Source of the DNA: an uncultured Clostridia bacterium
GTDB lineage: Bacteria; Bacillota; Clostridia; Oscillospirales; CAG-272
Direction of reading: 5' to 3'
Assembly: GCA_944381075.1 (NCBI GenBank)
Contig: CALWJT010000044.1
Location: 1 to 36,849 of the forward strand
Length of the DNA stretch: 36,849 nt
Position 1 is the first letter of the stretch. Every line of letters begins with the position of its first letter. The position numbers were made by a program, and so were the translations under genes. The notes beneath the pieces are model-generated. The model was not told the DNA's origin. It worked only from the letters and a program-made list of their open reading frames with translations, and ran no database searches. This document shows, one piece after another, positions 3,569 through 36,643 of this stretch.

Positions 3569-3607
3569 AAAGAGTGTAAGGGAAAAGAAAAGAGACCCTA
3601 AAGGGAG

Positions 3608-3649: not shown

Positions 3650-3728
3650 TCCCAGCCGAACGCGTATGTTATAGTCGGATTAAGGCAAAATATAATAATA
3701 TCGAACTGAAAAATAGGAGGTAATTTAT

Positions 3729-4184: not shown

Positions 4185-4189
4185 TTGCA

Positions 4190-4221
4190 AAAAACCCTTC
4201 CGGGATTCCGGAAGGGTTTTT
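4190..4221. terminator. Bidirectional terminator hsp20/rplA
   Basis: A 13-bp stem (4191-4203 with 4208-4220), 4-nt loop. Runs of T follow the stem on the plus strand and runs of A precede it, so it can end hsp20 on the plus strand and rplA on the minus strand. Confidence 0.9.
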
Positions 4222-4257
4222 CTATCCTTTCAAAAAGGGAAAATCGATTGCAGAATT

Positions 4258-4953: not shown

Positions 4954-4975
4954 TTTCGTTACTCCTCCCCCGAAA

Positions 4976-5401: not shown

Positions 5402-5500
5402 GATTGATACCTCCGAATGTGGTGTATGCCGGGAGAAATGCGAAAAATTTTTCTCCCTCCCACAGATTTTGCCTCCCGAAAGGGAAGCGGTGACATAAAT
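5402..5500 (-). promoter_or_regulatory. Structured rplK leader, candidate L1 autoregulatory site
   Basis: The nusG-rplK spacer folds on the minus strand into two hairpins. One pairs 5450-5457 with 5431-5438 (GGGAGAAA with TTTCTCCC). The other pairs 5482-5488 with 5471-5477 (GCUUCCC with GGGAGGC, UUUC loop). The G-rich and C-rich arms could also pair with each other in alternative ways. In E. coli, L1 binds the rplK leader to repress translation. That this spacer does the same is inference; I cannot match it to a defined L1 motif. Confidence 0.45.
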
Positions 5501-8281: not shown

Positions 8282-10327
<2,046 letters not shown>

Positions 10328-10435
10328 TCAGAGAATACGGGGATGCGGATGCCGCCTTCCGCTGCTTTTCCCATAGGGGGATGCGTGCCGAAGCTTTGCC
10401 GCAGGGGAACCCGCCGTGCGGTATCCGCTCAGCGC

Positions 10436-11341: not shown

Positions 11342-11446
11342 GGTGTTCTCCTGATACGCCTCCGCTTTCCCGCGGAAACGTCATTTTGCATCGGCGCTGA
11401 GGCCTGCGGGCGAGCCGGTCCAGCCTTTTTCGTTTTCATTTTTTAC

Positions 11447-11475
11447 AGTATAGCATAAAAGAAAAAATCTGTAAA
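11447..11475 (-). promoter_or_regulatory. Promoter of APH-fold kinase gene
   Basis: TTTACA (11470-11475), 17-bp spacer, TATACT (11447-11452) on the minus strand. Confidence 0.7.
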
Positions 11476-11624
11476 TGGTTTCCGGTGGAAAATCTCCTTT
11501 TGGGTTTGTCCAAGGGACAGCGGCCGCCTTTCGGTACATATAGAATATTATCGCACTTTTTTGTGAAAAATCACAAGAAATCAAAATAAATTTTGAATAA
11601 ATTTGAAAATATTTGAGAAAACAG

Positions 11625-13336: not shown

Positions 13337-15298
13337 ATGGAACTTGATGCACTGATCGAAATGTCACATAAATACGGTGCGGACGCGGACTTCGTCCTCG
13401 CCGGAGGCGGCAATACCTCCTATAAGACGGCGGATACGCTGTATATCAAAGGTTCCGGCACACGGCTTGCGTCCATCGACGCTTCCGGCTTTGTCAAAAT
13501 GGACAGAGCAAAGCTTGCCAGCATCTGGGATATGAAATTTTCCTCGGAGGAAAAGCAAAGAGAGGCCGAGGTCCTGTCGGCGATGATGGCCGCGCGTGAA
13601 GCGGGAGAGGAAGGAAAGCGGCCGAGCGTGGAAACGCTGCTTCATGACCTGTTCCCGCAGAGACTGGTGCTCCATGTGCATCCCGCGCTTGTCAACGGAA
13701 TGACCTGCGGACGCGCAGGCAAGAAGATCGCGGCGGAGCTTTTCCCGGATGCGATCTGGGTCCCGTCAACGAAGCCGGGCTATATTCTTGCTTCCGTCTG
13801 CCGGGAAAAAATGGAGGAATACCGGAAGAAAAACGGGCGCGACGTGAGCCTGCTGTTCCTCGGCAATCACGGCGTTTTCTTTGCTGCTGATACGACGGAG
13901 GGGATCGATGCGCTTGTCACGGAAGTCATGGTGAAGCTGCGTGCATCGGTCGAGACCTTGCCTAATGCAGGTGAGGCGGTGTACGACCGTGAGATGGCGA
14001 AGCGCCTTGTTCCGGAGCTTCGCATGCTGTATGCGGACGGCGGGGAAGCGTGCGTCCGGTTTTCCGTCCATCGCGACATCCTGATGTTCGCTTCGGACGA
14101 AAAGCATTTTTCGGCGGTGCGCGGTGCGTTCACGCCGGACCATATCGTATACTGCGGCGTCTCGCCGATGCTTGTGAAATCGGACGGAGAGGATACGCCG
14201 GAGCGTCTTGCGCGGGAATTTGAAAAATTCGTCAAGCATAACGGCGCCGCGCCGAAGATCGTGCTCGTCACGGGCGTGGGCATGTTCGCCTGCGGCAGAA
14301 CGAAAAAGGAAGCCGATACGGCGGCGTCGCTTTTCGAGGACGCGATGAAGATCGCAGTTTATGCCCAGTCGTTCGGCGGACCGCTGCCGCTCGATTCCGA
14401 AATGTCGGATTTCATCCGGAACTGGGAAGCGGAAAGCTATCGTTCCGGCGTCTCTCTTGCGGGTGCCGCGAAAAAGCGGCTTTCCGGCAAGATATCCATT
14501 GTGACGGGCGCGGCGCAGGGCTTTGGTCTCGGTATCGCGCAGGCGATGGCAAGGGAAGGCGCTTACGTCGTGATCGCGGATATGAATGAGGCGGGTGCTG
14601 CGGCGGCGGCAAAATCGCTTTGCGATGCCTATGGCGACGGAACGGCGATCTCGGTGGGGGCCAACGTATCCGACGAGCAGTCCGTCTCCGACATGATCGA
14701 TACGGCCGTCCTTGCCTACGGCGGACTTGACATTTTTGTGAACAATGCCGGCATCGTCCGCGCGGGGAGCCTTGAGGAGATGACCAAGGCGAATTTTGAG
14801 CTTGTCACGTCCGTCAATTACACCGCGTATTTTCTCTGTGCAAAATATGCGTGCGTGCCAATGAAGATCCAGCACGCCTATGCGCCGGACCGCATGTCCG
14901 ACATCATCGAGATCAACTCGAAGTCGGGACTTGCCGGAAGCAATAAGAATTTTGCTTATGCCGGCAGCAAATTCGGCGGCATCGGGCTTACCGAAAGCTT
15001 TGCGCTGGAGCTTGCGCCCTACGGCATCAAGGTGAACGCGATCTGCCCCGGCAACTATCTCGACGGACCGCTGTGGACGGATCCGGAGCGCGGCCTTTTC
15101 GTCCAGTATCTGAAAGCGGGGAAGGTGCCCGGCGCTAAGACGGTGGAGGATGTCAAGGCGTATTACGAGAGCAAGGTGCCGCTCGGACGCGGCTGCCTGC
15201 CGGAGGATATCGCGCGCGCGCTGTTTTATATCGTCGAGCAGCAGTATGAGACCGGTCAGGCGCTTCCCGTGACCGGCGGACAGGAAATGCTCAAATGA
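13337..15298 (+). CDS. Bifunctional class II aldolase / short-chain dehydrogenase
   Basis: A 653-residue fusion. Residues about 1-370 are a class II aldolase/adducin domain with the metal-binding His-x-His (LVLHVHPALVNGMT) and a further His in LLFLGNHGVFF. Residues about 385-653 are a classical SDR with VTGAAQGFGLGIAQAM, NNAGIV, the catalytic serine region INSKSG, and YAGSK holding the Tyr-Lys pair. This architecture is that of RhaE/YuxG-type proteins, where the aldolase splits rhamnulose-1-phosphate to DHAP and lactaldehyde and the SDR acts on the aldehyde. No other rhamnose gene is nearby, so another deoxysugar or ketose phosphate is equally possible. Start ATG follows GAAAGAGG; the stop is 18 nt before the PHP gene. 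Confidence 0.82.
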   Translation: MELDALIEMSHKYGADADFVLAGGGNTSYKTADTLYIKGSGTRLASIDASGFVKMDRAKLASIWDMKFSSEEKQREAEVLSAMMAAREAGEEGKRPSVETLLHDLFPQRLVLHVHPALVNGMTCGRAGKKIAAELFPDAIWVPSTKPGYILASVCREKMEEYRKKNGRDVSLLFLGNHGVFFAADTTEGIDALVTEVMVKLRASVETLPNAGEAVYDREMAKRLVPELRMLYADGGEACVRFSVHRDILMFASDEKHFSAVRGAFTPDHIVYCGVSPMLVKSDGEDTPERLAREFEKFVKHNGAAPKIVLVTGVGMFACGRTKKEADTAASLFEDAMKIAVYAQSFGGPLPLDSEMSDFIRNWEAESYRSGVSLAGAAKKRLSGKISIVTGAAQGFGLGIAQAMAREGAYVVIADMNEAGAAAAAKSLCDAYGDGTAISVGANVSDEQSVSDMIDTAVLAYGGLDIFVNNAGIVRAGSLEEMTKANFELVTSVNYTAYFLCAKYACVPMKIQHAYAPDRMSDIIEINSKSGLAGSNKNFAYAGSKFGGIGLTESFALELAPYGIKVNAICPGNYLDGPLWTDPERGLFVQYLKAGKVPGAKTVEDVKAYYESKVPLGRGCLPEDIARALFYIVEQQYETGQALPVTGGQEMLK

Positions 15299-15316
15299 GA
15301 GAGGGGAATTTTGCAG

Positions 15317-16612
15317 ATGCAGCTGGAGCTTCTGATCGAAGGACTGAACGCGCCGGAGCGGGACGACAGGCTCGCGGCGCTTGCCGAAATCTATGAAATG
15401 AGCCGGCGGGGAGAGATCCCGACGCCGGAAAAAACCGATTTTGTCAACAATCATATCCATACGATTTATTCCTTTTCTCCGTATTCTCCGACCAAGGCCG
15501 TCTATATGGCATGGCAGAACGGACTTGCGACGGCGGGGATCATGGACCACGATTCGCTTTCCGGCGCGAGGGAATTCCTTGCGGCGGCGGAGATCGTGGG
15601 GCTTCCTGTGACCGTCGGCATGGAATGCCGTGCCTCGATGCGGCATACGAGGCTTGACGGACTTCGCATCAACAATCCCGACCAGAAGTCGATCGCCTAT
15701 GTAGCGCTGCACGGCGTACCGCATCAGAACATCGATATGATCAACAATATTTTTGAGTATTATCGATTCTGCCGGAACAAGCGCAATCGGAAGATGTGCG
15801 AGAATATCACAGAGCTGATGCGTCCCTTCGGCATTTCACTGGACTTTGACCGGGATGTCTATCCGATTTCCATGGCAAAGGAGGGCGGCAGCATCACGGA
15901 GCGCCATATCCTTTATGCGCTGACCAAAAAGATCACGGCGAAGTACCGCACGCCGGAGCAGGTCGTCGCCTTCCTTGCCGGCGAGATGAAGATCCCGATT
16001 TCGGATAAGGTAAGACGCCAGATCTTGTCGGGCAGGGATACGCCGGATTTCTATGAATATGATATCCTCGGCGCGCTGAAAAGCAATCTTGTGGAGAAGT
16101 TTTATATCCCCGCGGAGGCAGAATGCCCCGATATCTACGAGCTTGAAAAGATCTGCCGTGAATGCGGCGTGGTCCTTGCCTATGCGTATCTCGGAGATGT
16201 TGGCGTCTCTATCACGGGAGATAAGAAAGCGCAGCGGTTCGAGGACGGCTATACCGACCTTCTGTTTGCAGAGATCGAGCGGATCGGGTTCAATGCCGTG
16301 ACGTATATGCCGAGCCGCAACACGGAGGAGCAGCTTCGGGAGATCATGGAGCTTTGCGACGCACATAAGCTTTTCCAGATCAGTGGAGAGGACATCAACT
16401 CGCCGCGCCAGTCGTTCCTCTGCCATGCGATGAAAGCGGATATGTTTTCTCATCTTTCCGATGCCGCCTATGCGCTTATCGGGCATGAGAGAGAAGCGAC
16501 AAAGGACCTTGACCGTGCGATGTTTTCGCCGGCAGTATGCCGCGAGATACCGAATCTGCGTGAGAGATGTGCTTATTTTAAGACAAAAGCGCTGGAGTCC
16601 CAGAACATATAA
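15317..16612 (+). CDS. PHP-domain metal-dependent hydrolase-like protein
   Basis: A 431-residue protein with the polymerase-and-histidinol-phosphatase fold. Metal-ligand motifs are visible: NHIHTIYSFSP (HxH) near residue 48, MDHDSLSG near 78, GMECRASM near 105. PHP enzymes hydrolyse phosphate esters with a trinuclear metal site. The start was set at ATG 15317, with AGAGGGGAA 8 nt upstream; an in-frame TTG at 15311 is possible but too close to it. It follows the aldolase/SDR gene by 18 nt, so it probably removes a phosphate from an intermediate or product of the same pathway (inference). Confidence 0.78.
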   Translation: MQLELLIEGLNAPERDDRLAALAEIYEMSRRGEIPTPEKTDFVNNHIHTIYSFSPYSPTKAVYMAWQNGLATAGIMDHDSLSGAREFLAAAEIVGLPVTVGMECRASMRHTRLDGLRINNPDQKSIAYVALHGVPHQNIDMINNIFEYYRFCRNKRNRKMCENITELMRPFGISLDFDRDVYPISMAKEGGSITERHILYALTKKITAKYRTPEQVVAFLAGEMKIPISDKVRRQILSGRDTPDFYEYDILGALKSNLVEKFYIPAEAECPDIYELEKICRECGVVLAYAYLGDVGVSITGDKKAQRFEDGYTDLLFAEIERIGFNAVTYMPSRNTEEQLREIMELCDAHKLFQISGEDINSPRQSFLCHAMKADMFSHLSDAAYALIGHEREATKDLDRAMFSPAVCREIPNLRERCAYFKTKALESQNI

Positions 16613-16617
16613 AAAGC

Positions 16618-16658
16618 ACAGCGCGGGGTCTCTGCCGCATGCAGAGACCCCGCGCTGT
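16618..16658. terminator. Strong hairpin after PHP gene
   Basis: An 18-bp perfect GC-rich inverted repeat (16618-16635 with 16641-16658), 5-nt loop, 6 nt after the PHP stop codon. On the plus strand no T-run follows it; on the minus strand TGCTTTTTATA follows. It looks like a terminator drawn in the minus direction, although no minus-strand gene ends here. On the plus strand it may act as a barrier or 3'-end stabiliser. Confidence 0.6.
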
Positions 16659-16765
16659 TGCTGTAGAGCAAAAAAAGTGCAGATTTGGGAGGAAGTCTGA
16701 CGGGTATATTTTTGTGAAAAAAGAAATTCGCAAAATTGTATGAAACACATTGGAGCGAACATCCT

Positions 16766-17323
16766 ATGGAATGGATACAATATCGAAAAGAACAGAATGA
16801 CAAAGCGATAGAGAGCAGGATCCTTGGCCTTGAGGAAACGGCATGGCCGGGAGCGGCGCAGGAGAGCTTTCCTGCGGCTGCGGACACTTATGTTTTGTCC
16901 CTTGTGCTGCTGGATTCCGATATGGCGGTCTGCCATGTCGGGATTCGGAAAAAAGAACTGGTTCATAAAAAGATCGACTATATGGCGTATGGCCTCAGCG
17001 AGGTCGTGACCCATCCTACCTACCGGCGCCGCGGTCTTGGCACTCAAATGCTGCGTCGGGCGGCGGACTTTATCTTATCGCAGAGTCCGGATATCAGCAT
17101 TTTCACTTGTGCGCCGAAGTATGCCGCATTTTATGAAAGCGCGGGGTGGCAGACGGCAAGGGGAGCCTCTCTTGTCGGGGGCTCGAGCGCGGCGCCGTTC
17201 CGAAGCGACAGCCTCGGACTTGTCACAATGATCCGGTGGATTTCCGATAAGGGGATCGCCCACAAGAAAGATTTTGAAGATACGGATATTGTTCTGGAAT
17301 TGGGAGAAAACCAGCTCTGGTAA
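16766..17323 (+). CDS. GNAT family N-acetyltransferase
   Basis: A 185-residue GNAT protein. The acetyl-CoA binding motif A is clear: VVTHPTYRRRGLGTQMLRRA (R/Q-x-x-G-x-G/A). Motif B is the segment AAFYESAGW, which is usual in the family. The ATG at 16766 has GGAG 10 nt upstream; an in-frame TTG at 16736 has no ribosome site. Substrate unknown. The gene stands alone between two non-coding stretches. Confidence 0.85.
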   Translation: MEWIQYRKEQNDKAIESRILGLEETAWPGAAQESFPAAADTYVLSLVLLDSDMAVCHVGIRKKELVHKKIDYMAYGLSEVVTHPTYRRRGLGTQMLRRAADFILSQSPDISIFTCAPKYAAFYESAGWQTARGASLVGGSSAAPFRSDSLGLVTMIRWISDKGIAHKKDFEDTDIVLELGENQLW

Positions 17324-17693
17324 AAAAGCAAGCGAAAATTTGTGTTTTTCCTATGGAACGGGTCTTTCGTCGGACAATAAAATTTCGGTGGCTCCCGAGA
17401 GGGCCTCGCTTTTCTGATTGGTCTTTCTCTTTCCTTTTCTGTTACGATTGGCGAAAAGGGAGGTTGAGGTTCTCCTTGATAAAAAGCAGGAGGGCAGAGC
17501 TTGGAGCTTCCATTTTTTACAGGTATGTCGAAATTTGTTGTTTTTGCATAAATTCCCGGTGTCTGAAAATACTATGGGTGACAATCAAAGTTTGGAGAAT
17601 AAGGCGGAAACAAGATCGCTTGTTCCTTCAATGTCCCGCCGGACATGCGCCTTTTTTCCGGCTGACAGAAGGGATTTTTATACAAGATACCAT
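17324..17693 (+). other. 370-nt leader/intergenic region before LysM-CAP gene
   Basis: I find no gene. Two adjacent hairpins near the 3' end, GGAA(A)CAAG with CTTGTTCC (17607-17627) and ATGTCC with GGACAT (17631-17646), are followed by a run of six T (17652-17657), only 37 nt before the LysM-CAP start. This looks like an intrinsic terminator or an attenuator. I could not match the upstream part to a riboswitch class that I know, and no convincing promoter is visible. Confidence 0.4.
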
Positions 17694-25753: not shown

Positions 25754-27265
25754 CTACAGAATTAAACTGAGCAACGGCACGATCTGGCTGAATATCAGCC
25801 GATCTGTTACCGTGAGCTTGGAATCCCGGCAGGAGAAGGCGACGGCGACGGTGCCATGCTTTGTCATGACGGGCAGGTAGAGTGCCTTTGCCTCGCGGAG
25901 CGTTTCGCTTCCTCTGCCGGCAGGCCGGCTGTTCTTTTTGACCCATTCGGCAACGGCCTTTTCATTGGGGGCGGTCCAGAAGCTCAGATCCTCTTCTCTC
26001 CATGAGGAAAATGTATCCTTCGCACCGAATACGGCTGTGCTGCGCATGAAGGCGCGGCACAGGACGTCCGCTATCGTTTGCTCGGGAAGGTTGCTGTTCT
26101 GTATCTCACGCTCGATAACGTTATGGATATCGAGGGTCCGATTGGCGGTTCGATACTTCTGGAGCAGACGCCTTGGAAGAAAAAGCCTTTCAAAAAGCTC
26201 CCGGATCGCACTTTTCCGGCAGTCGATGTGCGTACTGTCGGGAACGATCAAAATCTGGACCTGCGGCATGCGGGCGATAAATTTATCCTCGAATCCCATC
26301 TTTTTTCCGACGGATTGCCATGTCTTTCCGATCACAAGGTCGGTGATGCCTGCGATGCGCGCATAGTCTGCGACTGTCTCCACGACGTCCTCTCCGTATT
26401 TCACGACCATCTCTCCGCCTAAGTCTTTGACGAGCCGCATGTGCCTTTTCAAGTTTGCGGCGGACTGGTCGCTCAGGTCGCCGTTGCGCTCGACATATAG
26501 GGCAGAAAATCGGCAATGGTACGCTTCCGCCATCCTTGCGGCGATATGGATATTTTTTTCTGCGGACGGCGAGGGACTGATCAGCACCAAGATTTGGGTC
26601 TTTCGCTGGCCGTTGTGATTCTGTTTTTCGATGCGGTCGGCATTGCGTCGCATATACAGCTCGCGCAGGGTAGAGAGATGTTCTGTCCGGAAAAAATTTT
26701 CAAGTGCGGTCGCAGCTCTTGTCTTGCCGTAAATTTTTCCCTCACGCATGCGTTCGATCAGCGCAGCGGGTTCAATGTCCACCAGTACGACCTCGTCGGC
26801 ATAATCGAAGATCTCGTCCGGGATGCGCTCGCTGACATCGACTGAGGTAGCGGCGTCTATCAGATCATGAAGCCCCTCGATATGCTGTACATTGACGGTC
26901 GTCCATACCTCGATGCCGCTGCCGACGAGCTCCTCCACGTCGATATAGCGCTTTGCGTTTTTGCTGCCGGCCGCATTGGTGTGCGCCAGCTCGTCGACAA
27001 GAAGGATGCGCGGACGGCGGGCAAGCGCCGCGTCCACATCAAACTCCTGAAGCTGAATCCCTTTATAGTGGAACGTGCGAAGCGGAAGGCGTTCTAAGCC
27101 TTCCGCCATTTGCAGCGTTTCGGGTCTGTCATGCGGTTCAAGATAACCGATGACGACGTCCAAGCCCTCTTGCTTCGCTTCCTGCGCAGCTTTCAGCATG
27201 GCGTAGGTTTTTCCGACGCCTGCCGAATAGCCGAAGAAGATTTTCAGTTTACCGCGTTCCATCAT
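25754..27265 (-). CDS. kdpD: Split KdpD: soluble sensor part (KdpD + USP domains, no kinase)
   Basis: A 503-residue protein equal to the soluble modules of the potassium sensor KdpD. Residues about 5-210 are the KdpD domain with Walker A GYSAGVGKT (12-20) and Walker B-like RILLVDELAHTN (85-97). Residues about 222-345 are a USP-like domain (ILVLISPSPSAEKNIHIAA ... TDLVIGKTW). Residues about 370-503 may be the GAF-like module. There are no transmembrane helices, no HisKA and no ATPase domain, while E. coli KdpD has about 890 residues. The ATG at 27265 overlaps the kdpC stop by 4 nt (ATGA). The missing DUF4118-kinase half is in the gene at 35549-36643. The stop is a clean TAG, so this is a stable short form rather than an obvious frameshift. 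Confidence 0.9.
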   Translation of the reverse strand: MMERGKLKIFFGYSAGVGKTYAMLKAAQEAKQEGLDVVIGYLEPHDRPETLQMAEGLERLPLRTFHYKGIQLQEFDVDAALARRPRILLVDELAHTNAAGSKNAKRYIDVEELVGSGIEVWTTVNVQHIEGLHDLIDAATSVDVSERIPDEIFDYADEVVLVDIEPAALIERMREGKIYGKTRAATALENFFRTEHLSTLRELYMRRNADRIEKQNHNGQRKTQILVLISPSPSAEKNIHIAARMAEAYHCRFSALYVERNGDLSDQSAANLKRHMRLVKDLGGEMVVKYGEDVVETVADYARIAGITDLVIGKTWQSVGKKMGFEDKFIARMPQVQILIVPDSTHIDCRKSAIRELFERLFLPRRLLQKYRTANRTLDIHNVIEREIQNSNLPEQTIADVLCRAFMRSTAVFGAKDTFSSWREEDLSFWTAPNEKAVAEWVKKNSRPAGRGSETLREAKALYLPVMTKHGTVAVAFSCRDSKLTVTDRLIFSQIVPLLSLIL

Positions 27266-27906
27266 TCGATCAATCCGTCGAGCGCGAGGTTGACAAGCAG
27301 AACGTTGACGCGCTCCTCGCCGAATATTCCAAGCCATCTGCCTTCTGTATATTCGTCGATGATCGCTTTAACCTCTTCCTCCGTGATGTTCTCCCCTTGC
27401 GCATTTCTTGCATGAACGATCGCGGGGATCTGGAAGTAGGCTGCCTCAGGAGAGATATGCGGGTCCACGCCGCTGCCGCTCGAGGTGAGAAGCTGGTCGG
27501 GGATGGCGTCCATATCCGTATAGCCGACGGCGGCCAGCTTTTCTTTTCTTTCTGCGATGCGCTCCTCTACCAGCTGTTCAAACTCCTCGCTTTCGGGAGA
27601 AAGGTTGGTGGGCGCGCCAAGGTTCACTCTGCCGAAAAGATATTTCGCATCCTCGTAATTTTGGCCGATGAGCTCGGAGCCGTAGACCTTTTTCGTCCCG
27701 TCCTTCAGAGTAACGATAATCTGTGAGCCGTTCGCTTCGTAAGGATAAAGCGCCTGCCCGACGACCGTTACGCTCAACGTGTAGACGATCCCGCAGAGAA
27801 GGGTAAAGACAAGCAGGCACATGAGCGCTGCCCGCACTGTCCCGAATCTGCGCTTTTTTCCGGATTCGGTCCTTGTGTCTTGGTTCATATTGGTTTCGTT
27901 TTTCAT
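27262..27906 (-). CDS. kdpC: Potassium-transporting ATPase subunit C
   Basis: A 214-residue KdpC, typical length. One N-terminal transmembrane helix (about residues 24-50) is followed by a periplasm-side/extracellular domain with the family segments GSQI (ANGSQIIV), SELIGQNYEDAKYLFGR, and SSGSGVDPHISPEAAYFQ. The subunit holds KdpA and KdpB together. It starts 10 nt after kdpB and overlaps kdpD by 4 nt, so C and D are translationally coupled. Confidence 0.97.
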   Translation of the reverse strand: MKNETNMNQDTRTESGKKRRFGTVRAALMCLLVFTLLCGIVYTLSVTVVGQALYPYEANGSQIIVTLKDGTKKVYGSELIGQNYEDAKYLFGRVNLGAPTNLSPESEEFEQLVEERIAERKEKLAAVGYTDMDAIPDQLLTSSGSGVDPHISPEAAYFQIPAIVHARNAQGENITEEEVKAIIDEYTEGRWLGIFGEERVNVLLVNLALDGLIE

Positions 27907-27916
27907 ATCAGTCTCC

Positions 27917-30001
27917 TTATTTTATGCCGCACAGCGTGAAAAGCAGGTCGAACAGCTTGATGAAGATAAAGGGAGCAATGACGCCTCCTACGCCGTAGAT
28001 GAGCAAATTGTTTTTCAGCATTTTGCCTGCGGGCTGTTCTTTATATTTGACGCCTTTCAGCGACAGCGGAATGAGCGCCACGATGATGAGCGCATTATAA
28101 AGGATAGAAGAAAGAATCGCCGTTGTCGGACTTGTCAAGCGCATGAAATTGAGTGCCTGGAGTCCGGGATAGATGCTGGCGAACAAAACGGGAATGATGG
28201 CAAAGTACTTAGCAATATCGTTGGCAATGGAGAAGGTCGTCAGCGCACCGCGCGTCATCAGAAGCTGCTTGCCGATGCGCACGACTTCGATGAGCTTCGT
28301 CGGACTGGAGTCGAGGTCGACCATGTTGCCGGCTTCTTTTGCCGCCTGTGTGCCGGAATTCATTGCGACTGCGACATCGGCCTGCGCAAGTGCCGGCGCA
28401 TCGTTCGTTCCGTCGCCTGTCATAGCGACCAGATGCCCTTCTGCCTGCAATTTCTTGATGAGGGAAAGCTTGGTTTCGGGCGTGGCTTCCGCGACGAAGT
28501 CGTCAACGCCCGCCTCCGCGGCGATGGCTGCCGCCGTGATCGGGTTGTCGCCCGTTATCATGATCGTCTTGATGCCAATCTTTCTTAAGTCGCTGAATTT
28601 TTCCTTCACGCCCTCCTTTACGATATCCTTGAGGTAGATAACACCCAGGACGGAGGCGTTCCTTGCCACGACAAGCGGCGTACCGCCGGCGCCGGCGACC
28701 TTTTCTACCGCTTTTTTGCAGTCTTCGGGAAATGCTCCGCCTTGCGCCTTGACATAAGCCTCGATCGCGTCAGCACTGCCTTTGCGGATATGCTCGTCGC
28801 CGATATCGACACCGCTCATCCTTGTTTTTGCCGAAAATTCAATAAACGTCGCTTTCAGTTTTGCGATCTCCTTGCCGCGCAGTCCGAACTTATTTTTTGC
28901 CAGGATGACGATGCTTCTGCCCTCTGCTGTTTCGTCCGCGATGGACGCAAGCTGGGCCGCTTCCGCAAGGTCACGCTCGCTTGTCGCACCGACGGGGATA
29001 AATTCGCTTGCCTGTCTGTTTCCGAGCGTGATGGTGCCCGTTTTATCCAAAAGAAGGATATCCACGTCGCCGGCCGCCTCGATCGCCCTGCCGCTCGTGG
29101 CAAGAACGTTGGCTTTGTTCAGGCGCGCCATCCCGGCGATCCCGATGGAGGAGAGCAGCGCACCGATCGTGGTAGGAGCAAGGCAGACGAGCAGTGCGAC
29201 GATGTTGGTAAGGCTGATCGGATCGCCCTGTCCCGCCTGATCTACAGAAAACTGCGAGAAGGGAAGCAAGGTAGCGGAGACGACAAGGAAGATGATGGTC
29301 AGCGTGACAAGTAGGATTTGCAGAGCGATTTCGTTGGGCGTCTTTTTGCGGCTTGCGCCCTCGACCATGGCGATCATTTTGTCGAGAAAGGACTTGCCCG
29401 CTTCCGCCGTGACACGGATGATCAGCCAGTCGCTCGTGACGAACGTGCCGCCCGTCACGGCACTTCTGTCGCCGCCGGATTCGCGGATCACAGGCGCGGA
29501 TTCGCCTGTGATGGCGCTCTCATCCACACTTGCGACGCCGATGATGACCTCGCCGTCCATCGGGATCTGTTCACCCGCTTTGACAAGGACGATATCGCCC
29601 GGCTTCAGCTCCGTGCTTTTGACCTCTGTGTATTCCGATTCGAGATCCGCCGTTTTCAGTTTCTTTGCAATCACGTCGCGGCGGGCTTTTTTCAGGCTTT
29701 CTGCCTGCGCGCGTCCGCGCCCTTCGGCGATGGCTTCGGCAAAATTGCCGAACAGCGTCGTGAACCAAAGAATAAGAGAAATCGCGAAGATGTACCAGCT
29801 TGCGCCGTCGGCGATTCCGCCAAGAGAAAGAAAGAACAGTACCATTGTGAAGATCGCCCCGAGATAGACGACAAACATCACGGGATTTTGGATTTGTGTT
29901 TTCGGCTTTAGTTTTACGAGCGACTGCACCGTGGCGTCAAGAACGATCTTTTTATTGACCAGTTGTCCCTTTTTGGGACTCTCGCTATTGTATTTATTCA
30001 T
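27917..30001 (-). CDS. kdpB: Potassium-transporting P-type ATPase subunit B
   Basis: A 694-residue P-type ATPase subunit. It has the phosphorylation motif DKTGTITLG (Asp 319), the TGES loop (165-168; serine 168 is the residue phosphorylated for inhibition in E. coli KdpB), [12 protein letters not shown] in the N/P region and [17 protein letters not shown] in the hinge. Seven or so membrane segments. I chose ATG 30001 with GGAGGTCAAAT upstream; an earlier in-frame start at 30049 would overlap kdpA. It drives potassium uptake by ATP hydrolysis together with KdpA and KdpC. Confidence 0.98.
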
Positions 30002-30014
30002 ATTTGACCTCCGA

Positions 30015-31730
30015 TCATGCGACATACTCCGCAATAGGACCGAGCGCAAGCGCCGGGAAGAAGCTCAGCGCGCCGATAATCAGAATCACGGCGATGAGCA
30101 GTCCCACGAACATTGCATTGTTTGTGGCAAGCGTACCGTCGGTCTGCGGCGTCATTTTCTTTTTACCAAGGCTTCCGGCAAGGAAGAGCGCGGCGAACAT
30201 AGGAATAAACCGGACCAGCAGCATGATGATGCCTCCTGTGACGTTCGTCCATACCGTGTTGGCATTGAATCCGGCAAATGCCGAGCCGTTGTTGTTCGCC
30301 ATCGATGCGAATGCGTAGAGGATCTCCGAAAATCCGTGCGGCCCGCTGTTGGTCAGCCATTCGGATGCCTGCGGCATCATCACAGTACCGGCCGTGCCAA
30401 GAAGCAGGCAGAGCACGGGCGTGAGAATGATGAGGCAGACCATTTTCATATCGAAGCTGCCGATCTTTTTGCCGAGATACTCAGGCGTTCTGCCGACCAT
30501 TAAACCGGAAATGAATACCGTGAGCAGGGCGAAGGCAAGCATTCCGTAGAGTCCGCATCCGACGCCGCCGTAAACGATTTCGCCGAGCATCATAAGGAAA
30601 GTCGGAATCATGCCGCCGATCGACGTATAACTGTCGTGCATCGAGTTCACGGAGCCGTTGGACACCGACGTCGTCGCGACCGCCCAAAGAGAGGAGCCGC
30701 CGATCCCAAAGCGCACTTCTTTTCCTTCCATATTGCCGATGGACTGTACGCCGTCCATCGAAATGGCGCCTGCATATTCAAATACGGTGCAGATGACAAG
30801 GCATGCCACGAAGAGAATGGTCATTGCCTTCAAAAGGGCGATCCCCTGATTCTTTTCTTTGAGGATCGTGCCGTCCTCGTTCCTGCGTCTCACGGCTTTC
30901 CCGAAGGTGAAGCAAAGTCCGGCGGGGATCCATGTAAGGGACAGGCATTCCAAAAGGTTGGTGAACGGAGTCGGGTTCTCAAAAGGATAGGCGGAGTTCA
31001 CGCCCCAGAAGCCGCCGCCGTTGGTAAAGAGCTGCTTGATGATGATCTGGCTTGCGGCGGGGCCGAGATACAGCTTTTGTGCCGTCCCGTCCATCGCGGT
31101 GTAATCGACGGCGCCCTGCATGGTCTGCGGCACACCGTCCGAAATGAGCAGCAGCGCGCCGATAAAGCATACCGGAAGCATGAAGAGCGTCACCCGTGTC
31201 ACGTCCGCCCAGAAGTTGCCGATGGTACGTTTTTCTTTTCTCGTAAAGCCTCGGATAAGGGCAAACAGAACGCAGATCCCGACTGCGCCCGACAAAAAGT
31301 TCTGCACGGTGAGGCAAATCATCTGTGACAAATAGGAAAGCCCCGTCTCACCGGAATAGGCCTGCCAGTTCGTATTGGTGATAAAGCTTGCAGCGGTATT
31401 GAATGCAAGATGCCAGCTCATCCCCTCGATATTTTCGGGGTTCCATGTCAGATATGCCTGAAGCATGACCACGGCAATAAAGAACACGAGCGAAAATATA
31501 CTGAAAAGGGCGATGCACAGGGCGTATTTTTTTGCGGTCATCTCCTCTTTCGGATCGATGCCCATTGCTTTGTAGATTCCTCTTTCCGTCGCGGTACAAG
31601 CTTTTCTTGCGAATACGGGCTCGCCCTTGTATATTTTATAAAAGGCTTTGCCGAACAGATACCCGACGCCAAGGAGCAGGACGAGATATAAAATATCCTG
31701 CAGGACGGTAAACATTACACTTTCCGTCAT
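30015..31730 (-). CDS. kdpA: Potassium-transporting ATPase subunit A
   Basis: A 571-residue, roughly ten-helix channel-like subunit that holds the selectivity filter. Filter loops of the family are seen, for example [33 protein letters not shown] (kept short here), [20 protein letters not shown] and [13 protein letters not shown]. Two start codons are possible: ATG 31730, whose GGAGG is only 3 nt away, and ATG 31715, whose ribosome site is poor. I keep 31730. The 180 nt upstream to kdpF hold a large hairpin. Confidence 0.97.
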
Positions 31731-31760
31731 AATCCATCCTCCATTTTATCTTAGTTTTTT

Positions 31761-31847
31761 CGATCAAGGGACATGCCGATAAGGACGGATGCGGCGAAAG
31801 GGCAGATCAAATGCCTTTTTCGCTTTATCGGACTGCTGTCCCTATCG
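31761..31847 (-). other. Large hairpin between kdpF and kdpA
   Basis: An imperfect 87-nt hairpin with 28 paired bases: 31761-31764 with 31844-31847; AGGGACA 31767-31773 with 31837-31843; CCGATAA 31776-31782 with 31825-31831; GCGAAA 31794-31799 with 31818-31823; GGCA 31801-31804 with 31812-31815. Neither strand has a T-run after it, so it is not a normal terminator. It would be in the kdpF-kdpA mRNA, where it might act as a regulatory or processing element, or it could be a palindromic repeat. Confidence 0.6.
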
Positions 31848-31867
31848 CTGCTATGTCAATGCGGACG

Positions 31868-31899
31868 TATCCGTCCGGATGCGTATCCTTATCCGTCCG
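31868..31899. repeat. Short direct repeat TATCCGTCCG
   Basis: TATCCGTCCG occurs at 31868-31877 and 31890-31899. A CGGACG (31862-31867) can pair with either copy's CGTCCG. CGTATCC also occurs at 31866 and 31882. The spacing of 22 bp is close to two helical turns, which would fit an operator, but the position within the operon argues for an RNA role. Confidence 0.45.
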
Positions 31900-31910
31900 C
31901 CGGACCGTAT

Positions 31911-32000
31911 CTACGATCGGTCGCTTTTGAACAGCGAATAAAACAGAAATCCCAAAAGTCCGAGCGAGAGGAATCCTGCTGCAATCGTAACTGCCGTCAT
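31911..32000 (-). CDS. kdpF: Small Kdp membrane subunit KdpF
   Basis: A 29-codon ORF, MTAVTIAAGF then SLGLLGFLFYSLF then KSDRS: one hydrophobic helix with a short basic tail, the normal make-up of KdpF, which stabilises the Kdp complex. It starts at ATG 32000 with a strong AAGGAGG 6 nt upstream. It lies 12 nt after the TPR gene and 180 nt before kdpA, the usual relative position in kdpFABC. Short genes such as this are easily missed. Confidence 0.85.
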   Translation of the reverse strand: MTAVTIAAGFLSLGLLGFLFYSLFKSDRS

Positions 32001-32012
32001 ATGAGAACCTCC

Positions 32013-32390
32013 TTATCCATCCAGTCCCCAGCGGATGCCGGAACTATCCTTATACCAGAATTTACAGACCCTTTCCAGGTTGTCAAACGAGGCGCCAAAA
32101 GTCTGGTCCATATAGTAGGCGACTCTGTAGAATTTTGAGGCTTTCAGTTTGTCGCCTTCCAGCTCATAAGAGATGCCGAGCAGATTGTATGCCTCCGGAT
32201 CCTCCATATCGGTCGATACAGATTGCTTGAGTAAATCGCGTGCCAAGGCATAATCCGCTGCGCGAATCGCATCGGCGGCTTTTCTTAGCAAACTGTTATG
32301 ATCTGCAATGCGATCGGCGGGTGTGCTCTGCGCTTCAGGGCGCTCGGTATTTTTCAGCCCGGCGCCGGTCATGGAAATTTTTGCAGTCAT
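32013..32390 (-). CDS. TPR-like protein at the head of the kdp operon
   Basis: A 125-residue soluble protein. Residues about 32-105 look like two to three tetratricopeptide-type helix pairs: LLRKAADAIRAADYALARDL, then PEAYNLLGISYELEGDKLKA, then SKFYRVAYYMDQTFGASFDN. No signal peptide or membrane segment. ATG 32390 has GAGAGGTGA upstream. The stop is 12 nt before kdpF and no terminator lies between, so it is the first gene of the kdp transcript. TPR proteins are adaptors; this one could link the pump or the split KdpD to another partner. Its function is unknown, and the association is inferred only from position. Confidence 0.75.
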   Translation of the reverse strand: MTAKISMTGAGLKNTERPEAQSTPADRIADHNSLLRKAADAIRAADYALARDLLKQSVSTDMEDPEAYNLLGISYELEGDKLKASKFYRVAYYMDQTFGASFDNLERVCKFWYKDSSGIRWGLDG

Positions 32391-32416
32391 GGCTTATCAC
32401 CTCTCTTTCGCACGCT

Positions 32417-32445
32417 ATTATACTGCTTTTTCTATTAAGAGAACA
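32417..32445 (-). promoter_or_regulatory. Candidate kdp operon promoter
   Basis: On the minus strand a perfect TATAAT (32417-32422) is preceded, with 17-bp spacing, by a poor -35, TGTTCT (32440-32445). The DNA upstream is AT-rich with A-tracts. A good -10 with a bad -35 fits a promoter that needs an activator such as KdpE; that is inference. Confidence 0.55.
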
Positions 32446-32477
32446 TTGAGATTTTTTTGCACGGCATTAAAAATGTA

Positions 32478-33827
32478 TTAAGCTTCGTCTGCTGCAAGAA
32501 AGGCGTCAAATAACGCCCGTACGGCGCGTTCATAATTGCTTTCGTCGATGCCTGCTATGACGTTGATTTCTCTGCATCCCTGAATCAGCATGCGAATGTT
32601 GATCCGATTGTCCGACAGAGCAGTCAGCATTTTCGCAGCGATGCCGACCCGCTGGAACATATTTCTGCCGACGATCGAGACGATGGCGATTTTGTCGAGA
32701 AGCTGAATGCTGTCGGGATGAATGCTTTCCTTGATTTCGTCTGCGAGCTCTTTCGCAAGACAGGGCTGCATGCTCGCATAGGGGATCAGGATGTTCATCG
32801 TATCAAGGCTTGCGGGCATGTGCTCGAAGACGATTCCGTGATATTCGAGGATAGAAAGGACCTTGCGCACAAATCCCTTATGGGTGTTCAGTCCGATCTT
32901 GTGGATCCATAGGATCCGAAAATCCTTTTTGCCGGCGATCCCTGTTATCGTGTGCCGGTTTGTGCTATGTATATTGGAACAGACGAGCGTGCCGTTTTGA
33001 TCGGGATGAAAGGTGTTTCGCACGTTCAGCGGTATTTTCGCTTTTACGATCGGGAGAAGGGCATCGGGGTGCATGACGCAGGCGCCAAGGTAGGAAAGCT
33101 CGCGCAGCTCACTGTATGTCATAGCGTCGATGATCCTCGCTTCCGGGACAATGTGGGGATCGGCGTTTAGAATGCCGTCTACATCCGTCCAGTTTTCATA
33201 TAAATCGGCCTTTTGGATCTGCGCGAGGATGCTGCCGGTGATATCGGAGCCGCCGCGCGAAAAGGTCATGACCGCTCCCGTTTCATCGGCTCCGTAAAAG
33301 CCGGGGATGACGGCACGCTCGACATTTTTCAAGCGGGCGCGGCACTGCCTTTCCGTTTTTTCCGAATCGTATCCGTCATAGCGGTTGAAGGCGATCAGCT
33401 CGGCCGCGTCGATGAAAGGAAAGCCGATTTTCGCCGCAAAAAGATAAGCGCAGAGATATTCTCCGCGTGAAATACAGAAATCGCGGCTTTTCCGACTTTC
33501 GATTTGCTCCTTTATGTCTTTCATCAGGCGGTCAAACGCTTCGTCACTTATCCCGCCATGTAGCGGGCGGAACCGCTCTTCTATTTGAGGAAACGTCTTA
33601 TCGCACCGTCCGGTCTCGGAAATTTCCTTATCGCATTCCATGAGCAGATCCGTCACCTTTTTCCCGCCCTGCGTTCTGCCGGGAGCGGAAACGACGATAA
33701 ACCGTCTTGCGGGATCGCTTTTTACGATATCCGCGACTTGCTCTGTGCTGCTTTGATCTGCCATCGACGTCCCGCCGAATTTGCATACGACCGTTCGGAC
33801 GGAATTTCGGTCTAATTCCATGTTCAT
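32478..33827 (-). CDS. lysC: Aspartate kinase
   Basis: A 449-residue aspartokinase that phosphorylates aspartate in the first step of the lysine, threonine and methionine pathway. Catalytic motifs are intact: VCKFGGTS (Lys 16), FSRGGSDITGSILA, ENWTDVDGILNADPHIV. The C-terminal third has two ACT domains (HKIGLNTHKGFVRKVLSILE and AIVSIVGRNMFQRVGIAAKM), so feedback control by an amino acid is likely. ATG 33827 has AAAGGTG and overlaps the dapA-like stop by 4 nt (ATGA). A longer open frame upstream is the shadow of the dapA-like gene. It lacks a visible terminator before the TPR gene. Confidence 0.93.
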   Translation of the reverse strand: MNMELDRNSVRTVVCKFGGTSMADQSSTEQVADIVKSDPARRFIVVSAPGRTQGGKKVTDLLMECDKEISETGRCDKTFPQIEERFRPLHGGISDEAFDRLMKDIKEQIESRKSRDFCISRGEYLCAYLFAAKIGFPFIDAAELIAFNRYDGYDSEKTERQCRARLKNVERAVIPGFYGADETGAVMTFSRGGSDITGSILAQIQKADLYENWTDVDGILNADPHIVPEARIIDAMTYSELRELSYLGACVMHPDALLPIVKAKIPLNVRNTFHPDQNGTLVCSNIHSTNRHTITGIAGKKDFRILWIHKIGLNTHKGFVRKVLSILEYHGIVFEHMPASLDTMNILIPYASMQPCLAKELADEIKESIHPDSIQLLDKIAIVSIVGRNMFQRVGIAAKMLTALSDNRINIRMLIQGCREINVIAGIDESNYERAVRALFDAFLAADEA

Positions 33828-34714
33828 TCTATCACCTTTGCTGCGCGAAGTGCGCTGAGTTCTTTTTGGAGCCGTTCTGCCGTTTGTTTTTCTGCCGGAC
33901 AGAGAGGAAGTCTCGGACTGCCGACATTCCTTCCCATAAGATTCATGGCGGCTTTTACAGGGATGGGATTGGTTTCGCAGGACAACGCCTCTATGAGCGG
34001 GAAAAGCTGAATTTGCAGCTGGGTGCTTCTCTCTGCGTCTCCTGTAAAGTAGCGGGTGCAGATATCGTGGACGATATGCGGAAAAAGATTGGAGAGCACA
34101 GAAATACATCCGCAGGCTCCAGCACCCAGCAGGGGCGCGTTCATCGCGTCACAGCCGCTGTATATGTCCAAATGATCGCCATATACGCTTTTCAGCCGGA
34201 TGCACTGTTCTGCATTGCCTGAGAGCTCGCTTACTGCACGGATGTTTTTTATTTTCAGCAACCGTTCATAGGCTTCTGCCGGAAGCGCTGTATCGATGGA
34301 AGCACTGCTGAGGATAAAGGGAAGCTTGGCCGCTTTTGCACATGCGGCATAATGCAGGTATAAGCCCCTTGGAGGGCACGGATAGGGCGGAGGAAGCATG
34401 AACAGGATATTGGCTCCCGCCTCCTCCAGAGCGCCGCATTCCTTTGCGGCTTCGGCGGTACCGCTGTTTCCCGTGCCTGCAATCAGCGGTACTCTTTTGC
34501 AGATCCTCTTGGCTGCGAAAGAAACGATGGAAAGCTTTTCTTGTATGCTCAAAGCGGCGTTTTCTCCCGTTTCTGCGCACATCAAAAGCGCATCGCAGCC
34601 ATGGCTCAGCTGGTAGTCGATCAATTTTTCAAGGATTTTATAATTCACCTGCCCCGCTTGGTCAAAGGGGGTGACGAGCGCCGTTGCAGCGCCGACGAAA
34701 AGATGTTCTTCCAT
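33824..34714 (-). CDS. DapA-family protein lacking catalytic residues
   Basis: A 296-residue (beta/alpha)8-barrel protein plainly related to 4-hydroxy-tetrahydrodipicolinate synthase: FVGAATALVTPFD, LIDYQLSHGCDALL, PLIAGTGNSGT, ANILFMLPPPY and ALSCETNPIPVKAAMNL. However, the active site has changed. The Schiff-base lysine (normally in a KEAS motif) is Ser 162 (AVSELSG); the catalytic tyrosine (normally YN) is Ser 136; the substrate-binding arginine of GRT is Asp 141; the GTTGE threonine is Glu 48; and one of the paired tyrosines (PYY) is Pro 110. It should not make dihydrodipicolinate. It is translationally coupled to an intact aspartokinase, so a regulatory or binding role is plausible. The start has AAGGAG upstream. 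Confidence 0.88.
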   Translation of the reverse strand: MEEHLFVGAATALVTPFDQAGQVNYKILEKLIDYQLSHGCDALLMCAETGENAALSIQEKLSIVSFAAKRICKRVPLIAGTGNSGTAEAAKECGALEEAGANILFMLPPPYPCPPRGLYLHYAACAKAAKLPFILSSASIDTALPAEAYERLLKIKNIRAVSELSGNAEQCIRLKSVYGDHLDIYSGCDAMNAPLLGAGACGCISVLSNLFPHIVHDICTRYFTGDAERSTQLQIQLFPLIEALSCETNPIPVKAAMNLMGRNVGSPRLPLCPAEKQTAERLQKELSALRAAKVIE

Positions 34715-34753
34715 ACGGCTCCTTTTTTGAAGATGACTTTTATCGCTTTCATG

Positions 34754-34782
34754 ATTCTATCGGATTTTATATTAAAAGTCTA
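34754..34782 (-). promoter_or_regulatory. Promoter of dapA-like/aspartokinase operon
   Basis: TAGACT (34777-34782), 17-bp spacer, TAGAAT (34754-34759) on the minus strand, 40 bp before the dapA-like start. Confidence 0.6.
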
Positions 34783-34816
34783 TTGGGATTTGTCCCTTTT
34801 GCATTAAGATTGTATA

Positions 34817-34859
34817 AAGAAAGGCGAAGCCGCTCTTTTTGAGCGGCTTCGCCTTTCTT
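34817..34859 (-). terminator. Terminator of histidine kinase-kdpE operon
   Basis: A perfect 19-bp stem (34817-34835 with 34841-34859), 5-nt loop; on the minus strand the arm ends in TTTCTT. It lies 17 nt after the kdpE stop and separates the regulators from the dapA-like operon. Confidence 0.88.
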
Positions 34860-34875
34860 ATGGAAGGAGGAGGTT

Positions 34876-35556
34876 TTATTCGATCCTGTTCATCCTGTAT
34901 CCGACCCCGACGTCTGTGCGGATAAATTCCTGCATATAAGGCCCCTTTTCGATTTTACGGCGGATTCCCGCCATAAAGACGCGCAATCCGTTTGCATCGT
35001 TTCCGCCGGCGCCCCAAACCTTTGAAATGATAAAATTATGGGTGAGCGTTTTTCCGACGTTCTGCGCCAGCACGCACAGAACCTTGTATTCGTAATTGGT
35101 TAAGTGTACTTCCTTTCCGTCAAGATAGACGCTGTGTGCGGCATAATCTATTTTTAAACTGCCGTTTTCAAATACGGAAGCCTGCTCCGTATGCGCGCGG
35201 TGACGAAGCGCTGCCCGTATTCTTGCCATCAGCTCAGCGGTAGAGAAGGGCTTCTGCACGTAATCGTTGACGCCGGCATCCAGGCATTTTATTTTTTCCG
35301 CTTCGTCGCTTCTCGCGCTGACGACGATGATGGGAAGAGATTCAGAGAAATCGCGGATGACGTTCACGACAAAAATGCCGTCCATATCGGGAAGTCCCAG
35401 ATCAAGGATAACCAAATCCACTACATTTGCCACGGTATAGTCGATTCCTTCCCGGGCGGTGGCGACTCCCTTGATTCCATAGCCCTCCTGTTTGAGCGCG
35501 ACTTTCAATAAATTTTGAATTGCCATATCGTCTTCGATGATTAAAATTTCAGACAT
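34876..35556 (-). CDS. kdpE: KdpE-type response regulator
   Basis: A 226-residue OmpR/PhoB-family regulator. The receiver domain (1-118) has acidic pocket EDD (8-10), phosphoacceptor Asp 52 in ILDLGLPDMDG and Lys 102 in VQKPF. The winged-helix domain (about 130-226) has LTNYEYKVLCVLAQN and DANGLRVFMAGIRRKIE, and it ends FIRTDVGVGYRM. It should activate kdp transcription. ATG 35556 follows GGAGGAAAGCA and overlaps the kinase gene by 8 nt. A longer frame upstream lies in the kinase gene and is rejected. Confidence 0.94.
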   Translation of the reverse strand: MSEILIIEDDMAIQNLLKVALKQEGYGIKGVATAREGIDYTVANVVDLVILDLGLPDMDGIFVVNVIRDFSESLPIIVVSARSDEAEKIKCLDAGVNDYVQKPFSTAELMARIRAALRHRAHTEQASVFENGSLKIDYAAHSVYLDGKEVHLTNYEYKVLCVLAQNVGKTLTHNFIISKVWGAGGNDANGLRVFMAGIRRKIEKGPYMQEFIRTDVGVGYRMNRIE

Positions 35557-36643
35557 TGCTTTCCTCCATGGGGAGCGTAAATTCAAATATGACCTCCCGC
35601 TCCGAATTTCTTGCGGTGATTTCTCCGCCGTGTGCCGTAACGATAAGCTTGCAGATGGAAAGTCCCAGTCCGCCGATGTTGTCCTGTACGTTGTCGCCGC
35701 CCTTGTAGTATGCCTCGAACAAATGAGGCAGATCTTCTTTGCGGATGAGCTCGCCGTCGTTGGAAATGCGGAACACGGCACTTTTTCCTGTGTTCCATAC
35801 CTTTATCGTGATGTTCCCGTCATCCGACGTATGCTTGATCGCATTGCCCAGAATGTTGGAAATGGTTTGGATGATAAGGGTCGCATCCATGGGAACCAGC
35901 ATCAGGTCCGCCGGCATATCGTAATGGATGGTCCTGTGTCCGAGCGCGCCATACACAGTGCGGACCGCCTGCGGAACGATTTCCTCCAGTGCTTCGGCCT
36001 GCTTTTTCACCGTCAAATGCTCGCTGTCTATTCTCGAAAGGGAAAGCAGGTTTTCTACAAGGCGTATCGTCCAGTTGGCTTTGTCTATAATACTCGATAA
36101 GATTTCCCGCCGGTCCTCCTTTTCAATACCGTCGTCGCAGAGCAATACCTCCGCACCGTTTTTCATTGTAGTAAGAGGCGTTCTCAAATCGTGGGAAATA
36201 CTGCGAAGCAGCATGGCCTTCATTTGCTCTTTTTCCGCTTCGCTTTTGATTTTTGCCTTTTCCATATTCAGCGCGTTGATTTGCTCCATTTTACGCTTTA
36301 ACTGGTAGGTTATGGTGCTGATCCCAATGCCTGTCACAAGCATCAAAAGGAAGGTGACAAGATATGAGCGGTCATAAAAATGGAAGGTATATCGGGGGAC
36401 AGTGAAAAAGAAGTTGTATCCGAATACACTCAGGGCAGAAAGGCAAAGTGAATAGACGTATCCGCGTGTAAATACAGCGGCAAGCAAAATGCCGAGGATA
36501 TAGAGGATCAGATAATTTCGGTTGTCGATCTGAAAGAAATCGAGCAGATAGCAGATGCCTGTACATGCGATAAACAGGCCAAGCGTAATAAGGATTTGCA
36601 GTAGAATTTGTTTAATCGAAAGCTGTTTTCTTGAATTTTCCAT
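35549..36643 (-). CDS. DUF4118 histidine kinase: membrane/kinase half of split KdpD
   Basis: A 364-residue sensor kinase. Residues about 12-115 hold four hydrophobic helices of the DUF4118 type found in KdpD (LILYILGILLAAVFTRG and FGYNFFFTVPRYTFHFYD are hallmark segments). Then follow HisKA with SISHDLRTPLTTM (His 151) and an ATPase domain with N box ILGNAIKHT (about 265-272), and G boxes near 294-299 and 323-330 (GGLGLSIC). The KdpD nucleotide-binding and USP domains are absent. It is the first gene of the operon and overlaps kdpE by 8 nt. It is thus the C-terminal half of KdpD, encoded apart from the soluble half at 25754-27265. The ribosome site (GGCGG) is modest. Confidence 0.92.
   Translation of the reverse strand: MENSRKQLSIKQILLQILITLGLFIACTGICYLLDFFQIDNRNYLILYILGILLAAVFTRGYVYSLCLSALSVFGYNFFFTVPRYTFHFYDRSYLVTFLLMLVTGIGISTITYQLKRKMEQINALNMEKAKIKSEAEKEQMKAMLLRSISHDLRTPLTTMKNGAEVLLCDDGIEKEDRREILSSIIDKANWTIRLVENLLSLSRIDSEHLTVKKQAEALEEIVPQAVRTVYGALGHRTIHYDMPADLMLVPMDATLIIQTISNILGNAIKHTSDDGNITIKVWNTGKSAVFRISNDGELIRKEDLPHLFEAYYKGGDNVQDNIGGLGLSICKLIVTAHGGEITARNSEREVIFEFTLPMEESNV

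Follow-up and report, generated by a model that had tools for sequence, protein, structure and literature searches.

In Escherichia coli, and in most members of the order to which the bacterium studied here belongs, KdpD is a single chain of ~900 residues with the module order KdpD-Usp-transmembrane (TM)-GAF-DHpCA, and has KdpE as its partner. Only in 2024 was its N-terminal domain identified as an atypical serine kinase (ASK), which shuts the Kdp pump by phosphorylating Ser162 of KdpB and works when isolated (PMC11018627). Split forms are also on record. Deinococcus radiodurans has a kdpBAC-kdpD-N operon and a separate sensor kinase/response regulator operon (PMC5716572), and a survey of 5495 species describes KdpDs in which one chain carries the serine kinase activity and another the histidine kinase activity, the commonest pair being KdpD/Usp plus TM/GAF/DHpCA (PMC11018627). 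According to the same report, a short KdpD/Usp chain phosphorylates KdpB Ser162 under cyclic di-AMP (c-di-AMP), and some species whose kinase is separate still have the ASK chain encoded behind the pump genes. That survey took only species annotated with a Kdp pump, so that pump-less forms lie outside it. Here we describe a two-chain KdpD, divided differently, on a contig of an uncultured Clostridia bacterium; this entire contig, 36,849 bases long, is hereafter the window (genome of 2.0 Mb in 47 contigs, 93.6% complete).

All kdp-region genes of the window lie on the minus strand, in the order, from the contig end, of a membrane histidine kinase (HK), kdpE, a hairpin, dapA, lysC, a promoter region, a TPR protein gene, kdpF, kdpA, kdpB, kdpC and a short kdpD (Table 1). 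The initial annotation had described a KdpD split into two genes 8 kb apart, and in this it was right as to coordinates, lengths and gap, the last being 8.28 kb between 35549, where the HK gene ends, and 27265, where short kdpD starts. The product of the gene after kdpC indeed has KdpD, Usp and GAF modules and no membrane or kinase domain. PF02702 scores 294.8 bits (cut-off 26.1). Usp is weak by Pfam (16.7 bits, cut-off 24); residues 213–317 match the PDB chain 7ji4 (E 7.5e-7), which is named KdpD and which we take to be the S. aureus Usp domain. The tail has no GAF match in Pfam, but comparison of profiles with one-piece KdpDs identifies it as their GAF module (probability 98.4, E 1e-14). Pfam finds no DUF4118, HisKA or HATPase, and there is no TM segment. 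The gene before kdpE encodes, all over the Pfam cut-offs, DUF4118 (residues 18–122), HisKA (142–208) and HATPase_c (253–360), and Pfam finds neither PF02702 nor Usp in it; only ~20 residues separate DUF4118 from HisKA, with no GAF module between TM and DHp. Both chains score under the cut-off of the one-piece KdpD model PRK10490 (331.8 bits for the short chain and 182.6 for HK, against 1123). No full-length KdpD was found elsewhere in the genome, of which ~6% may be missing from the assembly; it yielded one PF02702 and one DUF4118 match.

The two chains are thus KdpD-Usp-GAF and TM-DHpCA. The earlier picture of a complete KdpD spread over two proteins stands insofar as all modules are present together, but not as to a division at one border. 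In the one-piece chain the TM lies between Usp and GAF, so the modules are interleaved and a single cut cannot give two such chains. As in D. radiodurans, an N-terminal KdpD chain sits behind the pump genes, and a kinase resembling the C-terminal half sits with its regulator in a separate, neighbouring operon; in that species, however, the soluble chain is described as an N-terminal half and the operons are opposed (PMC5716572), whereas here that chain bears the GAF as well, both operons run in one direction and a TPR gene comes first. The novelty claimed for having both parts in separate operons therefore falls. What is different here is the GAF on the soluble chain, by which the locus departs from the commonest surveyed pair although it shares the separation of the two kinase activities (PMC11018627), and the TPR-headed pump operon, whose TPR gene and 29-residue kdpF were absent from the earlier description. 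Two order-mates (G153 and G177) also have short KdpD/Usp chains (~380 residues) made of ASK plus Usp, and across these domains the chain of G177 is 39% identical to that of the window; G177 has a separate 504-residue kinase with TM, DHpCA and a GAF-sized stretch between. Unlike the chain of the window, these lack a GAF, are encoded convergently with the pump genes and lie on a distant branch of the tree. The one-piece KdpDs share with the window all modules, the KdpE partner and the pump. In the openly licensed literature, supplementary tables excluded, a word search returned no GAF on a soluble chain, TPR gene or pump-less KdpD.

We consider it probable that the two chains divide Kdp control between them, the short KdpD being a serine-kinase brake on the pump and HK/KdpE the transcription switch. 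The short KdpD would act as an atypical serine kinase that, at plentiful K+, phosphorylates Ser162 in the KdpB TGES loop and stops the pump, its inputs being c-di-AMP at Usp and possibly cytoplasmic K+ or some other ligand at GAF. HK would sense external K+ via its four-helix domain and phosphorylate KdpE, which would then bind a TTAAYR-N5-TTAAYG box and turn on TPR-kdpFABC-short kdpD. Gene switch and pump brake would in this way be separate proteins, each new batch of pumps would come with its brake, and the GAF on the soluble chain would place internal sensing with the brake. Feedback by stoichiometry, as suggested in the initial annotation, gives way here to the known chemistry of the domain, since serine phosphorylation of KdpB would explain more directly why the gene is expressed together with the pump. 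With an ASK domain set apart from the histidine kinase and a GAF attached to it, the locus is a natural system for asking what gates the ASK.

The active-site residues are conserved. Walker A, the Walker B residues D109/E110 and the W39/R190 pair are reported as necessary for the KdpD serine kinase (PMC11018627), and we accordingly scored Walker A (G-X5-GKT), Walker B (D/E) and the aromatic-Arg adenine pair. All eight short proteins found (see below) keep G30, G36, K37, T38, an aromatic residue (Y/F) at 39, D109, E110 and R190, which in the window protein are G12, G18, K19, T20, Y21, D91, E92 and R172. The kdpE-adjacent KdpDs of L042, L043, L046 and L047, loci with a KdpD on either side of one pump operon, offer a contrast, G30 and E110 being replaced in 4/4. 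On the side of the supposed target, the TGES of KdpB with its preceding Glu (E161/S162) is kept in the window and in the three related pump operons L059, L060 and L106. A diadenylate cyclase (DAC domain) is encoded in the same genome as the window (G000:C29, 154.5 bits) and in all 12 genomes tested. As for the switch, the phospho-acceptor His (H673 equivalent) is present in 4/4 kinases of the HK type. The HK gene, whose earlier assignment to the kdp locus held up, overlaps kdpE in the window and is contiguous with kdpABC in L059 and L060; by this overlap and by synteny the regulator is probably of the kdpE type, KdpE PRK10529 being the best model though under its cut-off (183.2 against 325 bits).

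A short KdpD that is merely a non-catalytic sensor or scaffold, binding ATP and c-di-AMP only, is in our estimate most improbable. Two NCBIfam models match it, and the name of one, NF038185 'KdpD-like non-kinase potassium sensor', would suit such a role, as would the Y/F rather than W at position 39; this match, however, reaches 294.4 bits against a cut-off of 550, and the Walker B glutamate, reported as needed for serine kinase activity in E. coli KdpD (PMC11018627), is kept in 8/8 short proteins, though not in all other KdpDs.

The proposed switch also draws on the promoter region. TTAAYR-N5-TTAAYG has a single match in the window (0.02 expected), at a distance of 75 bases from the TPR gene as counted from its near end, and a match precedes that gene in all four operons, namely those of the window, L059, L060 and L106. 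From the box start to TATAAT there are 59, 59, 59 and 58 bases, respectively; L106 has two more TATAATs upstream of the box. Among 3000 shuffled upstream regions for each operon, 0, 14, 0 and 11 carried the box. Because the pattern was written after viewing the four sequences, both this count and the expectation overstate its rarity, and the constant spacing is the stronger evidence. Two AT-rich 6-base direct repeats are described as the binding site of E. coli KdpE (PMC3264566). The HK-kdpE loci L059, L060 and L113 hold no box beyond those preceding the TPR gene. Over all loci fetched, the pattern was seen in 17/113, several being one site fetched twice; of nine box loci with other KdpDs, six have it upstream of kdpD on the same strand, and the remaining three have it on the opposite strand.

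The scan of the short protein against the GTDB species-genome collection gave five relatives, whose alignments start at residue 2 or 4 and reach 503, and the short-form genomes, the window's own included, number eight. The eight short proteins make one clade with support 100 (tree of 53 rows), as do the four TM-DHpCA kinases (support 100, tree of 33 rows); both trees were built quickly and many of their inner branches are weak, which leaves unsettled where either clade joins the one-piece KdpDs. L059 and L060, the latter a locus in an uncultured Clostridia metagenome-assembled genome, have HK-kdpE-TPR-kdpF-kdpA-kdpB-kdpC-short kdpD as one run, without the dapA-lysC that in the window comes between HK-kdpE and the pump operon. 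The short KdpDs of L059 and L060 are 55% and 68% identical to that of the window; for L060 the other values are 66% (HK), 81% (KdpE), 55% (TPR), 81% (KdpA), 91% (KdpB) and 68% (KdpC). In a further genome (G991), TPR-kdpF-kdpABC-short kdpD is on one contig (L106) and HK-kdpE on another (L113). The TPR protein, of 108–146 residues, is the first gene product of the pump operon in 4/4 loci read. L060 has an additional 80-residue open reading frame between kdpF and kdpA (5235–5474), with no Pfam match.

Could the two chains instead be complementing halves, the short KdpD docking on the membrane kinase to form one functional KdpD in which Usp/GAF signal into kinase/phosphatase switching? The five KdpD modules do each occur exactly once across the two proteins, and a kinase without a GAF of its own may need outside input for K+-stimulated phosphatase activity, cytoplasmic K+ being reported as sensed by the C-terminal domain (PMC5936718). 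Furthermore, the four kinases of the clade all come from short-KdpD genomes, although the kinase by itself was sought in no general survey, and to this extent the expected co-occurrence is seen. It fails in the other direction. The kinase was searched for in 13 genomes (DUF4118 in five and the window's own), and one of the same type was found in 4/8 short-KdpD genomes; as far as searched, the partner is missing in the other four (G748, G749, G750 and G872), which speaks against obligate halves. The two parts are on different contigs in G991, and the AlphaFold2 single-chain models are poor (mean pLDDT 52.6 for the short KdpD from six sequences and 59.7 for HK from three). We therefore think such docking unlikely and keep to brake and switch as separate proteins that would need no obligate complex.

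Several observations weigh against the proposed division of labour. First, position 39 is Y or F in the short proteins and W in E. coli. Second, the c-di-AMP motif (A/G/C)XSXSX2N(Y/F), as given in PMC8214093, is kept at 3/5 positions (S230, S232 and Y257; L228 and A235 deviate), so the ligand may differ. The SXS-X20-FTAXY motif of PMC4686210 corresponds to S230-P-S232, 20 residues and FSALY, with S replacing T. Third, K+ sensing by the GAF is possible by extrapolation from E. coli, where the site of action is reported to be externally accessible for external K+ and to lie in the C-terminal cytoplasmic domain for internal K+ (PMC5936718). Fourth, the box is probably a KdpE site, an ascription made solely by its position and repeat form. 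Fifth, the contrast with the two-KdpD loci is imperfect: kinase-bearing KdpDs of G067 (L009) and G442 (L029, L049), genomes with two KdpDs each on different contigs, keep all eight ASK positions, and L052 has D for E110 with no known second copy. Finally, three genomes (G748–G750) keep the short KdpD and no kdpA was found in them (the search did not extend to kdpB), which makes it hard to see KdpB as the sole target across the clade.

These three genomes, close kin of 0.9–1.1 Mb in assemblies of unknown completeness, have a diadenylate cyclase and no match to the histidine kinase. Their short kdpD adjoins a TetR-type gene (L056 by Pfam, L057 and L058 by similarity), and no kdp genes lie within the fetched flanks. 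The ratio of non-synonymous to synonymous substitution rates (dN/dS) for L056 against L057, the one measurable pair, is 0.032 (KdpD domain 0.024, Usp 0.006, GAF tail 0.052; dS ~1, simple counting), indicating strong purifying selection; L056 against L058 was left unused, synonymous sites being saturated in two of three domains. If the kinase is preserved where the pump of its one supposed substrate is missing, then another substrate exists. KdpD-Usp-GAF might thus be a family of free-standing, ligand-gated serine kinases with targets beyond KdpB, acting on another protein in this lineage, conceivably at the TGES loop of some P-type ATPase other than KdpB or on some other K+/osmolyte transporter. 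We put this forward tentatively and hold it for somewhat doubtful; if true, c-di-AMP-linked and K+-linked protein phosphorylation would be broader in bacteria.

The short form is rare. It was found in one of 395 genomes of the window's own family, in 2/201 of the G752 family and in 1/55 of the G751 family; the G748 family (196 genomes) gave four in 521–541-residue frames and one in an 869-residue frame. In the window's own order, PF02702 is over its cut-off in 45/394 genomes, and of the 50 places concerned, 44 fall within open frames of 869–993 residues. Being rare and scattered over several families, it suggests transfer between lineages. That a normal KdpD has merely been fragmented, misassembled or misbinned we regard as next to incredible. 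The assembly is fragmented and the contig stops 206 bases upstream of HK; in addition, three same-genus genomes tested have no kdpA and six other sampled members of the genus no match to the short KdpD. Yet start and stop codons are intact, misbinning of the contig may have occurred but would leave the architecture untouched, and both architectures recur in independent assemblies, each as a supported clade. A short form in eight genomes with a same-type kinase in four is no sequencing break.

Several further KdpD arrangements were seen. Two KdpDs flank one pump operon in L042, L043, L046 and L047; in 4/4, the kdpE-adjacent copy carries S in place of G30 and D in place of E110, and the other copy keeps both residues. 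In L042 and L043 that other copy has no histidine kinase, possibly another way of arriving at the same split of tasks. In G872 (G748 family; L079 8893–10732), short kdpD stands at a contig end behind the final part of a kdpC-like frame with upstream stops; no DUF4118 was found in this genome, its best kinase match is a 27% HisKA match, and the arrangement could be either an intermediate or a product of the assembly. In the window's own family, 18/395 genomes match the short KdpD through Usp alone, 15 of them in open frames of 627–688 residues; L067 and L069 are Usp-TM-DHpCA proteins without a KdpD domain, and with five proteins from the G752 family they group within the one-piece KdpDs in the kinase tree. 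In the one-piece KdpD of L054 (8134–10809), the KdpD domain has diverged strongly and scores 101.9 bits (in the order survey, under G405, 99.6 bits).

Table 1. Features of the window and counterpart loci in other genomes
Locus	Feature	Coordinates	Strand	Evidence or remark
Window	Membrane histidine kinase (HK), 364 residues, phospho-acceptor H151	35549..36643	-	Pfam domains; clade support 100
Window	Probable kdpE-type response regulator, 226 residues, 8-base overlap with HK gene	34876..35556	-	Best model KdpE PRK10529
Window	Strong terminator-like hairpin between HK-kdpE and dapA-lysC	34817..34859	-	-36.6 kcal/mol, z -9.95; missed by simple hairpin scan
Window	dapA, 4-hydroxy-tetrahydrodipicolinate synthase	33824..34714	-	TIGR00674 230.6 bits, cut-off 206
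Window	lysC, aspartate kinase	32478..33833	-	NF006540 453.6 bits, cut-off 434
Window	Direct-repeat box TTAATACATTTTTAATG, probable KdpE site	32465..32481	-	Sole pattern match in window
Window	TATAAT -10 element of TPR-kdpFABC-kdpD operon	32417..32422	-	Motif
Window	Small TPR protein, 125 residues, heads pump operon	32013..32390	-	Pfam and synteny
Window	kdpF-like membrane peptide, 29 residues	31911..32000	-	Counterparts in L059, L060, L106
Window	kdpA	30015..31730	-	TIGR00680 660.9 bits
Window	kdpB, TGES kept with Glu161/Ser162 equivalents	27917..30001	-	TIGR01497 1022 bits
Window	kdpC, overlaps short kdpD by 4 bases	27262..27906	-	Under KdpC model cut-offs, e.g. NF001454 146 of 178 bits
Window	Short kdpD, 503 residues	25754..27265	-	KdpD/ASK 4-212, Usp ~216-345, KdpD-type GAF ~377-480
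L059	TPR gene	5072..5431		
L060	TPR gene	4688..5125		
L106	TPR gene	12606..12929	-	
L056	Pump-less short kdpD locus	9328..11524		
L057	Pump-less short kdpD locus	164..2360		
L058	Pump-less short kdpD locus	9327..11521		
L042	Two-KdpD locus	14891..17545		
L043	Two-KdpD locus	14826..17507		
L046	Two-KdpD locus	14927..17587		
L047	Two-KdpD locus	3158..5884	-	

Just past short kdpD lie a tRNA-Pro and then a strong terminator-like hairpin (25417–25526). Integration at the tRNA-Pro (25417–25493) was considered and dropped, the tRNA having no exact repeat of at least 12 bases elsewhere in the window. Rfam at the gathering threshold returned this tRNA alone, and no kdp or c-di-AMP riboswitch in the window. 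The GC fraction, looked at as a possible sign of foreign origin, is 0.47–0.55 for the kdp genes and TPR, lowest in HK and kdpE, 0.52–0.53 for dapA and lysC, and 0.54–0.59 for six other genes of the window.

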